A DNA stretch of 64,000 nt from Solirubrobacteraceae bacterium. Lineage in GTDB: Bacteria > Actinomycetota > Thermoleophilia > Solirubrobacterales > Solirubrobacteraceae. Positions within the stretch are counted from its first letter, which is position 1, and each line of letters opens with the position of its first letter. The translations under genes and the position numbers were made by a program. Positions 41,724 through 47,053 of the stretch are shown here, piece by piece. The stretch lies in contig JAPSGI010000007.1 of NCBI GenBank assembly GCA_031177685.1, positions 62,001-126,000 of the forward strand. The letters run 5' to 3'. A model generated the notes under the pieces. That model had not been told where the DNA came from, did no database searches, and was given only the letters and a program-made list of their open reading frames with translations.

Positions 41724-42341
41724 TCAGTCGATCAGGCGGCGGCGCAGCGCCGTGGCGATCGCGTGCACGCGGTTGCGACTCTCGAGCTTGCGCATCGCGC
41801 TCTCCGCGTAGGAGCGGATCGTCGCCGGGCTGAGGAACAGCTCCTGTCCCGCCGCCTCGGTGGTCATGCCGTCGGCCAGGAGCTGGAGCACCTGGGCCTC
41901 GCGCGCCGACAGGGCCACCCCTTCGCGCTCCCGGCGGTCCAGCAGGCTGGACGTCAGCTGGGCGTCGACGAACGGCCGGCCGGCCGCCACGGCGCGCACG
42001 GCGCGCACCACGTCGGAGGTGGGCGCCGACTTGAGCACGAAGCCGTTCGCGCCCGCCTCCAGCGCCTGGTCCAGCAGGCCCGGGTCGTCGAAGGCGGTGT
42101 AGAAGACGACCTGCGGCGGGGATTCGAAGGTGCGCAGCTCGGCGCAGCACTCCAGCCCGCCCATGCCGGGCATCTGGATGTCCATGACCACGACGTCGGG
42201 GAGCCGGTTGCGGCCGATGCGCATCCCCTCGTGCGGGTCGGTCGCCTGCCCGACCACCTCGATGTCCTCCTCGCCGGCCAGCGCGCCGGCCAAGCCCTTG
42301 CAGAGGACCGGATGGTCGTCTACGACCAGGCAGCGGATCAT
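41724..42341 (-). CDS. NarL/LuxR-family response regulator
   Basis: 205 residues from ATG 42341; an earlier in-frame start (42395) would add a region without receiver homology. Receiver domain with Asp8-Asp9, phospho-acceptor Asp54 in VVVMDIQMPGMGG and Lys in FVLKSAP. The C-terminal LuxR helix-turn-helix is LSAREAQVLQLLADGMTTEA and SPATIRSYAESAMRKL. No histidine kinase of the HisKA_3 type is nearby. The gene is divergent from the sigma-factor fusion and convergent with the deacetylase (one base between stops). Confidence 0.9.
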   Translation of the reverse strand: MIRCLVVDDHPVLCKGLAGALAGEEDIEVVGQATDPHEGMRIGRNRLPDVVVMDIQMPGMGGLECCAELRTFESPPQVVFYTAFDDPGLLDQALEAGANGFVLKSAPTSDVVRAVRAVAAGRPFVDAQLTSSLLDRREREGVALSAREAQVLQLLADGMTTEAAGQELFLSPATIRSYAESAMRKLESRNRVHAIATALRRRLID

Positions 42342-42399
42342 CTCGCGGTCGGTTCCGCTTTCGGCATTCGCGTCAATCGTCCCTGACCCGCCCAATTAG

Positions 42400-42413: not shown

Positions 42414-42521
42414 GGAAGCTAGCGCTCGGTGCGGACGCCGTCGAGCCCGCACGGCAAATCGAGGGTAGAGACACCGCAGAATGCGGAGGGACGGGCGACC
42501 TCGGACGCCGAGACAGGCGGT

Positions 42522-43910
42522 ATGTCCCCCGCGGCACTCACCTCCGCGCCGCTCCCCTACGAGCTTCCGGGCGCGCCCGAGACGTGGCAGGCGCCGCTGC
42601 GCCTGGTCCACGACGCCACCCCGGCGCCCATCGCGCCGCCCGTCTCCCCCGCGCGCGACTCGCACCGCCTGCGCACGTGCGACGACGACGAGCTGCTGCG
42701 CCTGGCCGTGGGCGGAAAGGTCGAGCCCTTCGCCGTCGCGTACGAGCGCCACGGCGCGCCGCTGTTTCGCTACTGCCTGGCCATGACGTCGCACCGCGAC
42801 GACGCGGCCGACGCCGCCCAGGACGCCTGGCTGAAGGCCTTCGCCGCCCTGCGCCGCGAGCCGTTCGAGCCGCGTCCCTTCCGCCCGTGGATCTACGCGA
42901 TCGCGCGCAACGCGTGCATCGACCGCCTGCGCGGCCGCAACCGGGCGAGCCTGCACGAGCTCGACGAGGCCGACCTGGCCCCGGCGCCGTCGCCCGAGCA
43001 GGAGTGCGCCGCGCGCGAGGAGGTCCGCAACGTGCTGTCCGACCTGGCGCAGCTGCCGCTGCTCGAGCGCTCGGAGATCCTCATGCGCGACCTCGCGGGC
43101 CTCAGCCACGAGGAGATCGCGCAGGAGCTGCACATCTCCGTGCGCCGCAGCCGCGCGCTGGCCGGCGAGGCGCGCTCCTTCCTGCACGACCGGCGCGCCG
43201 GGCGCGACATGCCGTGCGGCGACGTGCGCACCCAGCTCGAGCGTCCGCGGCAGGGGCGCAACCGCCGCCTGCGCGCCCACCTCGACGACTGCGAGCTGTG
43301 CTCGGCCTTCGAGCGCCGCCGGCGCGCGCGCAAGCTCTCCTCGCTCGCCCTCGCCCCGGTGGCGCTGCTGCGCACGCTGACGGACCGCGCGGCGGCCTGG
43401 CTCGCCTCGCCCGTCGACGGGCTCGCGGCCGCGGCCGCGAGCCGCGGCGCCGCCGGACTGGCCGTGGCGGCCGTCGCGGTGGGCGGAGCCGCGACCGTCG
43501 TGCCCACCACCTCCACGCCGCCGGACCGCCCCGGGGCCGTCGCGTCGATGCCCGACCGCGCGGCTCGCCCCGCGCCCGCCGCACCGGCGCCGCGCGCCGC
43601 GACGGCGCGGCCGCGCACGCCGCGCTCCCTCGCCCGGTCTGACCGCACCGCCGTACGCGCGGACGGCGACCCCTCCCCGGCCGCCCCCCGGACGGCCACG
43701 GCGGAGGTCTCGCACCCGGCCGGCGCGCAGGTCCCGTCCGCCGCCCCGGACCGCACCGACAGCTCTGCCCCGGCCGTACCCGCGCCGGCCCCCGCCGAGG
43801 TGGTGCGCGCGCCCGTCGCCACGGTCCGCGAGACCGTCGAGTCCGCGCCCGCCGCGGTCGCCGAGACGGTCGCCGGCGTGCAGCGCGTGGTGCCGACCGC
43901 CGGAGCTTGA
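42522..43910 (+). CDS. ECF sigma factor fused to a zinc-finger anti-sigma-like and membrane segment
   Basis: 462 residues from ATG 42522; GTG 42429 is an earlier alternative. Sigma-2 region (about 53-125): VAYERHGAPLFRYC, AQDAWLKAFAALRR, WIYAIARNACIDRLRGR. Sigma-4 region (about 180-221): SEILMRDLAGLSHEEIAQEL and a recognition helix. Then CGDVRTQL and a H-x3-C-x2-C zinc anti-sigma motif (HLDDCELC, about 253-260). A hydrophobic, Ala-rich stretch at about 303-330 follows, and a 130-residue Pro/Ala-rich tail ends the protein. Sigma and anti-sigma elements thus sit in one chain, probably membrane-tethered. Confidence 0.85.
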   Translation: MSPAALTSAPLPYELPGAPETWQAPLRLVHDATPAPIAPPVSPARDSHRLRTCDDDELLRLAVGGKVEPFAVAYERHGAPLFRYCLAMTSHRDDAADAAQDAWLKAFAALRREPFEPRPFRPWIYAIARNACIDRLRGRNRASLHELDEADLAPAPSPEQECAAREEVRNVLSDLAQLPLLERSEILMRDLAGLSHEEIAQELHISVRRSRALAGEARSFLHDRRAGRDMPCGDVRTQLERPRQGRNRRLRAHLDDCELCSAFERRRRARKLSSLALAPVALLRTLTDRAAAWLASPVDGLAAAAASRGAAGLAVAAVAVGGAATVVPTTSTPPDRPGAVASMPDRAARPAPAAPAPRAATARPRTPRSLARSDRTAVRADGDPSPAAPRTATAEVSHPAGAQVPSAAPDRTDSSAPAVPAPAPAEVVRAPVATVRETVESAPAAVAETVAGVQRVVPTAGA

Positions 43911-43977
43911 GCCGGCGGCCGAAATCTCGGCCATTCGTCCAAACCCCCTGCAAACGGCCTCCTAACGCGTCGGTGCG

Positions 43978-44003
43978 GCGTCCGGACGAACCGCTCCGGA
44001 CGC
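43978..44003. promoter_or_regulatory. 26-bp inverted repeat with nine-base arms
   Basis: GCGTCCGGA and TCCGGACGC are perfect arms around an eight-base loop. It lies 67 bp after the sigma fusion and 46 bp before the next ATG. It could end the sigma transcript or be an operator for the secreted protein; no T tract follows, so an operator is somewhat more likely. Confidence 0.45.
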
Positions 44004-44049
44004 CCACCCGAAGCGGCCGCAGCGGTCGCGCCAATGGAGGTCCCTCCCC

Positions 44050-44952
44050 ATGTATCGCTCCCCGATGCTCGTCGCCGGCGGCGCCCTCGCGGGCCTGCTC
44101 GCGCTTCCCACGGCGGCGCCCGCCAAGAAGGCGAAGGGCGGCGTCGCGGCCCGTCTCGAGACCTCGGCCAACGTCAACGCCGGCTGGGCCGCGACGGCCG
44201 CCGCGCGCCGCTCGCACCGCGTAGCCCGCCGCCTGCTGCACGTCAGCCGCCAGCAGCTCGCCCAGGCGCAGCGCATCACGCTCGCCGGCATCCGCGACGG
44301 CGGCATGCGACGCGACGCGGCGACCGAGTCGGCGCAGCGCTTCTCCGCGGCGGTCGCCAGCAACAGCGAGCGCCTGGAGCGCCTCATGCACCGCGCCTCC
44401 GGCCGGCTGGAGCGCGAGGCGGCGCAGGCCATGCAGGCGAACGTCTACATGGAGGCCGAGATCGCGGTCGCGCTCGCGGCCTCCGCGCAGGGTCTGCCCG
44501 CGCCCGACCAGACGCAGGTCGCGTCCGGCGTCGCGGACCTGGCCGACCGTCAGGCCGAGCTGACGCGGTCCGTCCTGGCCGCGGTCAACCCCGAGGTCCT
44601 CGCGGCGCGCGTCCGGCGTCAGCTGGAGTTCACCGCCGCCCAGGGCCTGGAGGCCGAGAGCCGGATCTCCTCGGCGCTCGTCGCCCTGCACGCGGGCACG
44701 CAGTCGCACGCCTCGGACGCCGTCGCCGCCGCGTCGGCCCGCGTCGCGCAGGTCGCCCGCGACCTGCACGCGCTGGTCACCGGCTCGCACGTCGCCGGCG
44801 CCCTCGTGTGGACGAGCTACGGGCAGCAGGTGTCCGTGGGGGAGGTCTCCGCGCGCGTCGCCGCACGCGTGCAGGCGGACGCCGACGCCCTGGCGGGCGC
44901 GCACGTCGTGGCGCACGCGCAGACCGACGTCGGGATCACGCCCCTGGGCTGA
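44050..44952 (+). CDS. Secreted helical hypothetical protein, 300 residues
   Basis: ATG 44050 follows GGAGG at 44036-44040. Signal peptide with LVAGGALAGLLALPTAAPA, then an almost wholly helical, Ala/Arg/Gln-rich protein: QQLAQAQRITLAGIRDGG, ANVYMEAEIAVALAASAQ and DLADRQAELTRSVLAAV. No cysteine is seen. It may form a coiled-coil or repeat structure on the cell surface. I recognise no family. It follows the sigma fusion, which may control it. Confidence 0.7.
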   Translation: MYRSPMLVAGGALAGLLALPTAAPAKKAKGGVAARLETSANVNAGWAATAAARRSHRVARRLLHVSRQQLAQAQRITLAGIRDGGMRRDAATESAQRFSAAVASNSERLERLMHRASGRLEREAAQAMQANVYMEAEIAVALAASAQGLPAPDQTQVASGVADLADRQAELTRSVLAAVNPEVLAARVRRQLEFTAAQGLEAESRISSALVALHAGTQSHASDAVAAASARVAQVARDLHALVTGSHVAGALVWTSYGQQVSVGEVSARVAARVQADADALAGAHVVAHAQTDVGITPLG

Positions 44953-45026: not shown

Positions 45027-46781
45027 ATGACCCTCCTCATTCGACACTCCCTGGCCTGCGCGGCCGCCCTCGTGCTCGCCCTCGCCGGTGCCACGGCCCT
45101 CTCCGCCCCGGCCCTCGCCGGTCCCGTGGAGACCGTCCTCCAGGACGACGCCCACATCCTGTATCGCTCCGACGCCGAGGTGCGCGACACGCTGGCGCGG
45201 ACGCGCGCGCTGGGCATCGAGCGCGTGCGCCTCACCGCCTCCTGGTCGGTGATCGCGCCCGACCCCAACTCCGCGCAGCGCCCGCAGTTCGACGCCACGG
45301 ATCCCGCCGCGTACCCCCAGGCGGGCTGGAGCTACCTCGACCGCGCGGTCCGGGTGGCCCGCGAGATGGGCCTCGAGGTGATGATCGACGTCGCCTTCTA
45401 CGCCCCGCGCTGGGCCACCAAGGACCCGCCGGAGAACCAGCGGCAGCTGCGCACCGAGGTCGACCCGGCCGAGCTGGCGCGGTTCTCCGCCGCGGTCGCG
45501 CGGCGCTACGACGGCACGTTCGTGCCGCCGCGGCCGGCCTCGGCCGAACCACCGCCGCCCCCGCCGCCCTCGCTCCTGGATCAGCTCCTGGGCCGTCAGG
45601 CCGAGCCGCCGCCACCGCCCCCGCCGCCGCCGCCGGGCGAGGCGCTCCCGCGCGTCTCGCTGTACACGATCTGGAACGAGCCCAACCAGAAGGACTTCGT
45701 GCTGCCGCAGTGGGAGCAGCGCGACGGCGCCTGGTGGCCGCGCGCGGCCGACATCTACCGCGAGATGGTCTACGCGTCCTACCCGGCGATCAAGCAGGCC
45801 GCGCCGCACGCCAAGGTCCTCGTCGGCGCGACCGGCTCGGTCGGAGCCGCGAAGCCCGGCGCCGGGAGCGTCCCTCCGCTGCGCTTCATTCGCGCGCTCG
45901 CGTGCGTGGACGAGTCCCTGCGGCCGATCGCCACGGGCGGCTGCGCCGCGTTTCGGACGCTTCCCGGGGACGGGTGGTCGCACCACCCGTACTCCACGCG
46001 AACCCTGCCGCGCGTCGACGCGCGCCATCTCGACAACGCGCCGGTGGCCGCCACGCCGCGGCTGGCCGAGCTGCTGCGCCAGCTGGTGCGGCGCGGGCGC
46101 CTGGCGCCCGGACAGGCCGACCTCTACATGACCGAGTACGGCTACGAGACCAACCCGCCCGACCCCAAGGCGACGTTCGGGCTCGACCGGCAGGCCTCGC
46201 TGCTGGCCGAGGCGGAGTTCATCGCCACGCGCCACCCGAGCGTGAAGATGTGGGCGCAGTTCATGCTCACCGACCTTCCGGACAAGGGGATCGGCGCGGA
46301 CTGGCAGTCCGGGCTGTTCTTCGAGGACGGGCGGGCCAAGCCGGCCGCCGCGGAGTTCCCGTTCCCCGCGTACGCCGAGTGCGTGCACCGCGGCGGGCGG
46401 CGCTGGGTGCGCGTGTGGGGCCGCATGCGCGGCGCCGCGGCGAGCCGCAAGGCGTCGCTGGAGAGCGCGAGCGTCCGGACGCTGTCGTGGCGTTCGGAGC
46501 AGACGTGGGGATCGCTGTCGGACACCCGCTCGATGCGGGCCGCGACGGCGTCCGCGGCGGTGCAGCCGGACGGCGAGCTGGTCCGCTTCGCCCGCTGGCA
46601 GCCGGGCGGGCGCTACCGCCTGCGCTGGGAGGCGGGCGGCGACGCCGGGCGGCTCAGCCCGACCGTGGCGCCGGTCGGGTGCAAGAACCGCCCGGAGCGC
46701 ATCCGCATAAAGAGGAGGGGGCGCCACCCCGCAAAGCCCATCGTGCGCACCGGTCGCGCGCGCCACAAGGAGGCGAAATGA
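45027..46781 (+). CDS. Secreted glycoside hydrolase (clan GH-A-like) with a poly-proline insertion
   Basis: 584 residues. Signal peptide to about residue 32, then a (beta/alpha)8 barrel: VRLTASWSVIAP, VMIDVAFYAPRWAT, acid/base Glu218 in IWNEPNQ and nucleophile Glu370 in YMTEYGYETNPP. Residues about 167-208 are a loop with two runs of 7 and 10 prolines, absent from its paralogue at 55255. The C-terminal 90 residues are a small beta domain, ending in a basic Lys/Arg tail. The ends of the barrel fit GH39/GH5-type enzymes, but the sugar is unknown. Convincing ribosome binding site not seen. Confidence 0.8.
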   Translation: MTLLIRHSLACAAALVLALAGATALSAPALAGPVETVLQDDAHILYRSDAEVRDTLARTRALGIERVRLTASWSVIAPDPNSAQRPQFDATDPAAYPQAGWSYLDRAVRVAREMGLEVMIDVAFYAPRWATKDPPENQRQLRTEVDPAELARFSAAVARRYDGTFVPPRPASAEPPPPPPPSLLDQLLGRQAEPPPPPPPPPPGEALPRVSLYTIWNEPNQKDFVLPQWEQRDGAWWPRAADIYREMVYASYPAIKQAAPHAKVLVGATGSVGAAKPGAGSVPPLRFIRALACVDESLRPIATGGCAAFRTLPGDGWSHHPYSTRTLPRVDARHLDNAPVAATPRLAELLRQLVRRGRLAPGQADLYMTEYGYETNPPDPKATFGLDRQASLLAEAEFIATRHPSVKMWAQFMLTDLPDKGIGADWQSGLFFEDGRAKPAAAEFPFPAYAECVHRGGRRWVRVWGRMRGAAASRKASLESASVRTLSWRSEQTWGSLSDTRSMRAATASAAVQPDGELVRFARWQPGGRYRLRWEAGGDAGRLSPTVAPVGCKNRPERIRIKRRGRHPAKPIVRTGRARHKEAK

Positions 46782-47053
46782 GGGTTCCAGCGCAGGCCGC
46801 CGAAGCGCATGCTGCACCGATGCAAGCCACGGCCGAACATGGCATGGCGGGGACACCGGAAGCAAGGGTGGTTAGATGTTCGTGCAATCGCTGTGGAGCA
46901 CACGTGATCGCCACGGTGGCGGTCACGCTCGGAGGCAACTGCAACAACTGCGGGAGCTACGACCTCTCGCTCATCGGACCGGAGCCGCCGGCGCCGGTGC
47001 TCGCTCCTCCGCTGCGCGTGGCCTGGTCGGCTACGCCCGCGCGGGTGGCGTAG
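46778..47053 (+). CDS. Small zinc-ribbon protein, 91 residues
   Basis: ATG 46778 overlaps the hydrolase stop and follows AAGGAGG at 46767-46773, a strong ribosome binding site. The centre holds CSCNRCGAHV and CNNCGSYDLSLIG, two Cys-x-x-Cys pairs of a treble/zinc ribbon. No domain beyond that is visible; Pro-rich ends flank it. The gene overlaps the reading frame annotated for the GGDEF protein by up to 178 bp, so only one of the two N-terminal readings can be fully right there. Confidence 0.6.
   Translation: MRVPAQAAEAHAAPMQATAEHGMAGTPEARVVRCSCNRCGAHVIATVAVTLGGNCNNCGSYDLSLIGPEPPAPVLAPPLRVAWSATPARVA

Follow-up and report, generated by a model that had tools for sequence, protein, structure and literature searches.

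A multi-copy family of ECF sigma factors with a fused zinc-type anti-sigma domain and a predicted membrane anchor in a Solirubrobacteraceae bacterium

We analyzed a 64,000-nt stretch of DNA from a Solirubrobacteraceae bacterium (hereafter, the window), which encodes a fused sigma/anti-sigma/membrane-anchor protein at positions 42522–43910 of the + strand, as defined by ORF translation, Pfam matches, and GC content at third codon positions (GC3). The frame translates into 462 aa and is free of internal stops. Its start codon is ambiguous, as the frame extends open in the 5' direction to a GTG at position 42429. Based on an in-frame count of codon positions over 42522–43910, GC3 is at least 0.94 from the zinc part through the stop codon, which indicates that the tail of the 462-aa protein is read in the right frame. 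A frame error in the tail was considered and is ruled out by these GC3 values, which are maintained throughout. The first-pass annotation of this DNA had described ECF sigma-2 and sigma-4 regions in the chain, and both were indeed found above the curated cut-offs of Pfam: Sigma-70 region 2 (PF04542, Sigma70_r2, E = 1.9e-14) at aa 74–141 (42741–42944, +) and Sigma-70 region 4 (PF08281, Sigma70_r4_2, E = 4e-9) at aa 175–219 (43044–43178, +). These are the only sigma regions above the Pfam cut-off, which places the protein among ECF (group 4) sigma factors, and the best matches in PDB profile and fold searches were ECF sigma structures. The zinc motif, the hydrophobic segment, and the Pro/Ala-rich tail that had been reported for the same chain are present as well, at aa 232–260, 309–327, and 328–462, respectively.

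The zinc anti-sigma motif, C232-x20-H253-x3-C257-x2-C260 (43215–43301, +), extends over the first three predicted helices of the inhibitor domain and was identified from the alignment of relatives, an AlphaFold2 model, and a match to a zf-HC2 profile. All four zinc ligands are invariant in the 34/34 aligned sequences, and they represent four of only nine invariant columns in this alignment. Behind the motif, a fourth helix is predicted at aa 278–295 (43353–43406, +) from the alignment and from the AlphaFold2 model, and the Pro at aa 279 in this helix is nearly invariant in the alignment. Class I anti-sigma domains consist of four helices, the first three of which form a bundle on sigma region 4 while the fourth binds region 2, and their Hx3Cx2C motif is distributed across helices 2 and 3 (PMC7406223). 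In the AlphaFold2 model of the C-terminal part, whose residue 1 corresponds to aa 214, helices are found at residues 19–27, 35–43, 45–63, and 65–82; H40 lies inside the second helix, C44 at the end of the second, and C47 in the third. The alignment and the model together show the class I arrangement, in which Hx3Cx2C extends over helices 2 and 3 and is followed by a fourth helix. By analogy with the role of helix 4 in characterized domains (PMC7406223), this last helix would be expected to cover sigma region 2. A pTM of 0.52 does not fix the arrangement of the domains.

A comparison of profiles also pointed to an anti-sigma domain. Three zf-HC2 proteins encoded in the same genome, one of them a stand-alone protein whose gene lies beside a sigma gene, were aligned, and hhalign matched the zinc part to this alignment with 94% probability (E = 9.6e-8). 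The window protein did not score with the Pfam zf-HC2 family (PF13490), which was matched at E<1 by 9/34 relatives, and no anti-sigma structure was matched by Foldseek and VIA-align searches with the C-terminal model. The anti-sigma assignment is therefore based on three observations taken together: the zinc motif, the order of the helices, and the match between profiles.

A hydrophobic segment begins ~48 residues after the zinc motif, at aa 309–327 (43446–43502, +). It is predicted to form a single transmembrane helix based on a hydropathy scan and on similar segments in relatives. Its mean Kyte-Doolittle hydropathy of 1.94 was reached by 2.9% of the shuffles of the post-zinc region, and by 1.4% of the shuffles when the first 40 residues were omitted. 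The segment is an Ala/Gly/Val stretch, the charges flanking it on either side indicate no clear topology and, taken alone, it is only suggestive of a membrane helix. Hydrophobic stretches were detected at p<0.05 in 20/29 full-length members of the family (counting the query), which are not independent of one another, and the segments of the relatives are located at a median of 64 residues past the last Cys.

The final 135 aa of the protein (aa 328–462; 43503–43907, +) constitute a low-complexity tail rich in Pro and Ala, which is predicted to be located outside the cell on the basis of its composition and its intact frame. The Pfam scan yielded no domain in this tail, and a carbohydrate-binding or other folded domain, which we had considered, was rejected on these grounds. 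Tails vary widely among relatives: they are rich in Pro/Ala, in Ser/Thr/Gly, or in charged residues, with an abundance of Arg in some, and they are almost free of Cys. One relative (L052; G012 C1:1628610-1629620) has a tail that ends in an SH3_3 domain (PF08239, 28.5 bits vs. a cut-off of 27). Bacterial SH3 domains are common in cell-wall proteins. This domain supports an outside location of the tail for the family and is no proof of it for the window protein, whose membrane location and topology we infer from sequence. The tail of L052 contains four Cys.

Relatives of the window protein were collected in small draws from the genus, the family, and the order, and we took the loci with E-values no higher than 1e-20 or 1e-25. 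The pattern C-x(n)-H-x3-C-x2-C was found behind the sigma part in 33/33 of these loci, a proportion that is somewhat favored by the presence of the motif in the query. The first-pass annotation had named the absence of the zinc motif from close relatives as evidence against its reading. Such a loss was looked for and did not occur, and all 33 loci keep the motif. The motif was absent from the weaker sigma matches of the same genome (L005–L008), and a contig scan with the window protein returned only remote sigma factors (L011–L024), none of them with the zinc motif. The tree of the sigma-plus-zinc part presented several subfamilies, and the window protein was found in a clade with L025 (G004, 46% identity) and L037 (G012) with a support of 100/99.

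The 3.15-Mb genome of the bacterium possesses six genes of the fused layout: the window gene, one gene on C17 (L002), one on C13 (L003), two on C16 (L004 and L110/L115), and one on C21 (L114). The zinc part of two of them, L110/L115 and L114, is above the Pfam cut-off for zf-HC2. The remaining ECF genes that we examined in this genome have short C-terminal ends. The fused sigma factor of the window is one member of a multi-copy family and not an isolated fusion. Genes for fusions that include the zinc motif also occur in three further families of the class. In the sample of the phylum, other fused sigma factors have long C-terminal parts and a hydrophobic helix and lack the zinc motif.

Several other sigma genes were observed during this survey. 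L005/L131 (G000 C2:67768-69252), in the same genome as the window, is a relative with a hydrophobic stretch and a long basic tail that does not carry the zinc motif; it is possibly a derived form in which the inhibitor was lost. Two regions of this genome, L125 (G000 C17:17264-28363) and L126 (C27:166713-174665), contain several ECF paralogues with a C-terminal end of ~40 residues. These paralogues are mostly clustered on C17 and at least five of them carry a 'PVL..RR.AL'-like motif. Finally, L085, L086, and L089, from other families of the phylum, combine a strong hydrophobic helix with a C-terminus that is long, more domain-like, and free of the zinc motif. They may represent another design for anchoring a sigma factor in the membrane.

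The sigma gene is flanked upstream by a divergent response regulator with a LuxR-type helix-turn-helix (41724–42395, −), which was identified with Pfam and by tblastn in L078 and L079. Homologues of this regulator were found in both close relatives with 53% and 47% identity (tblastn). The regulator is directly divergent from the sigma gene in L078, and a PAS histidine kinase with a receiver domain (a histidine kinase/response regulator gene) is located between the two in L079. Downstream, the window encodes a secreted, Ala-rich helical protein of 300 aa (44050–44952, +), which has a signal-peptide-like N-terminus, no Pfam match, and no known family. With these two genes as its neighbours, the sigma gene has no separate anti-sigma gene adjacent to it, in agreement with the first-pass annotation. 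The gene of the 300-aa protein is followed by a gene for a secreted protein with weak similarity to cellulases (GH5; PF00150, E = 5e-4, below the Pfam cut-off; 45027–46781, +) and by a gene for a small zinc-ribbon protein with weak Pfam matches (46778–47053, +).

The same gene order, consisting of the sigma gene, a secreted helical protein, a homologue of the GH-like protein, and a homologue of the zinc-ribbon protein, was found in L079 (G012). This locus is the only relative with intact flanks, as the sequence of L078 stops just past the start of the tail. The GH-like homologue of G012 is 53–55% identical to the window protein and is found at the same place, as is the homologue of the zinc-ribbon protein. 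The secreted Ala-rich helical protein of L079 (7968–8804) occupies the same position as the one of the window, with no detectable similarity between the two sequences (E = 3.2). Among the 16 further genomes of the family that were sampled, a close orthologue of the sigma gene was identified only in the two close relatives, and a close GH-like homologue only in G012. The block that is common to the window and G012 supports a functional link between these genes, from one comparison. It also lends support to the earlier suggestion that the secreted protein is a possible target of the sigma factor, since the G012 orthologue is followed by a secreted protein and by the GH-like and zinc-ribbon homologues.

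The spacer that separates the sigma gene from the gene of the secreted Ala-rich protein contains an imperfect inverted repeat (43966–44015, no strand assigned) with a fold z-score of −3.0. Its 21-nt arms (43966–43986 and 43995–44015) are 81% complementary. A repeat had indeed been reported at this place, as a 26-bp inverted repeat and possible target; the repeat exists, and its arms are shorter and imperfect rather than a clean 26 bp. It is not common to G012, whose spacer has a different palindrome, and the repeat as a target of the sigma factor is therefore not supported. A conserved operator, which was also considered, is rejected for the same reason. The repeat is probably an mRNA hairpin. 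Scans for sigma-70-type promoters and terminators found nothing.

We propose that the window protein is probably a one-chain, membrane-tethered ECF sigma factor that is inhibited in cis by its anti-sigma domain and released by proteolysis. The fused zinc anti-sigma domain of class I type would hold regions 2 and 4 inactive inside the cell, and the single transmembrane helix would anchor the chain such that its long disordered tail lies on the outer side. When an envelope signal acts on this tail, site-1 cleavage would follow, then cleavage by an intramembrane protease, and then the trimming of the anti-sigma part, and these steps would free the sigma part. The likely targets would include the sigma factor's own gene and the downstream block of secreted-protein and GH-like genes. 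The invariant zinc ligands, the class-I-like helix order, and the zf-HC2 profile match give good support to the claim of the first-pass annotation that a single chain comprises the sigma factor, its inhibitor, and its anchor. The further view of this annotation, that such a protein would have to be cleaved or to change its conformation in order to act, is a reasonable hypothesis.

Alternatively, the fused chain could be inhibited and act without being cleaved, with zinc loss, oxidation, or a conformational change freeing the sigma part at the membrane. The strict conservation of the zinc ligands would fit this scenario, and soluble zinc anti-sigma domains are often redox sensors (PMC7406223). 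However, zinc plays a structural role in certain membrane anti-sigma factors (PMC7406223), a membrane-held sigma factor would have few promoters within reach, and the long tail would be left without a role, such that we consider an uncleaved mode of action unlikely. We find it more doubtful still that the protein is cytoplasmic, with an Ala/Val stretch that is no membrane helix, an intracellular disordered tail, and a regulation that operates through binding partners or the neighbouring response regulator. Most relatives have a hydrophobic segment after their zinc domain, one tail ends in an SH3_3 domain (L052), tails are almost without Cys, and in other fused sigma factors of the phylum the hydrophobic helices are stronger and the C-termini more domain-like. 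All of this argues against a cytoplasmic protein, although the hydropathy is modest at 1.94 and lower still in several relatives, the charge bias is unclear, and some relatives have Arg-rich tails. Finally, it is very improbable that the C-terminal part is a relic or a mere localisation device with no inhibitory function: L005/L131 has a tail and no zinc motif and the C-terminal model found no structural match, but the four zinc ligands are invariant across deeply diverged subfamilies.

More tentatively, the lineage may have expanded one-chain sigma/anti-sigma receptors into a main class of envelope signalling, with six in this genome and several subfamilies across the order, in which disordered, fast-evolving tails rather than ligand-binding domains would take the signal, and the window copy may drive the adjacent secreted GH-like block together with the conserved response regulator; we regard this extended scenario as possible rather than likely. 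With fused sigma/anti-sigma proteins, ECF signalling takes its one-component form. In the literature surveyed, SCO4117 and IutY are the only such proteins with an experimental study. With several paralogues per genome, conserved zinc ligands, differing tails, and an adjoining candidate target block, the model of an anti-sigma domain in cis that is released by cleavage would become directly testable, and the same family would reveal the part of the chain that determines the signal.

The layout itself is known from a few actinobacterial groups of sigma factors. The first-pass annotation had implied that it was novel, but ECF48, ECF52, and ECF53 already have it: these groups present a fusion to a C-terminal zinc-finger anti-sigma domain, with one or two transmembrane helices in ECF48 and ECF53 (PMC8999054). 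The likeness of the window protein to the three groups is judged from published descriptions. A search of the open literature outside the main classification papers found no description of such fused sigma factors in this lineage. What is new here is the invariance of the zinc motif, the proximity of a response regulator gene to the sigma gene in each of the two close relatives, and, in the one relative with intact flanks, the presence behind the sigma gene of secreted, cellulase-like (55% identical), and zinc-ribbon genes, as in the window.

The ECF52 protein SCO4117 of Streptomyces coelicolor resembles the window protein in that the sigma factor, the zinc finger, the transmembrane segment (identified here by hydropathy only), and a Pro-rich extension are found in one chain (PMC5826349, PMC8999054). 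Its release by proteolysis has been proposed and its truncated sigma part is partly active (PMC5826349, PMC8999054). In contrast to the window protein, whose tail presents no Pfam domain, ECF52 proteins have a tail that terminates in a carbohydrate-binding domain (PMC5826349), and SCO4117 is the sole ECF52 member of its genome (PMC5826349) whereas the window genome has six fused genes. In some ECF52 and ECF53 proteins, the chain itself includes glycosyl hydrolase domains (PMC10766802), while the GH-like protein is encoded downstream here. IutY of Pseudomonas putida (ECF243) also combines a sigma factor and a membrane anti-sigma factor in one protein, and its activation by regulated intramembrane proteolysis was shown experimentally (PMC8999054). 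Cleavage of the window protein is what we infer from this proteolysis and from the partial activity of the truncated SCO4117. IutY differs by its role in iron cell-surface signalling and by its Gram-negative host, and no zinc-type domain is described for it in PMC8999054. Finally, the inhibitor domain of the window protein resembles class I zinc anti-sigma factors of the ChrR and RsiW type, with Hx3Cx2C over helices 2 and 3 and a fourth helix behind (PMC7406223). Anti-sigma factors of this type are normally separate proteins encoded beside their sigma factor, whereas the domain of the window protein is fused to it.
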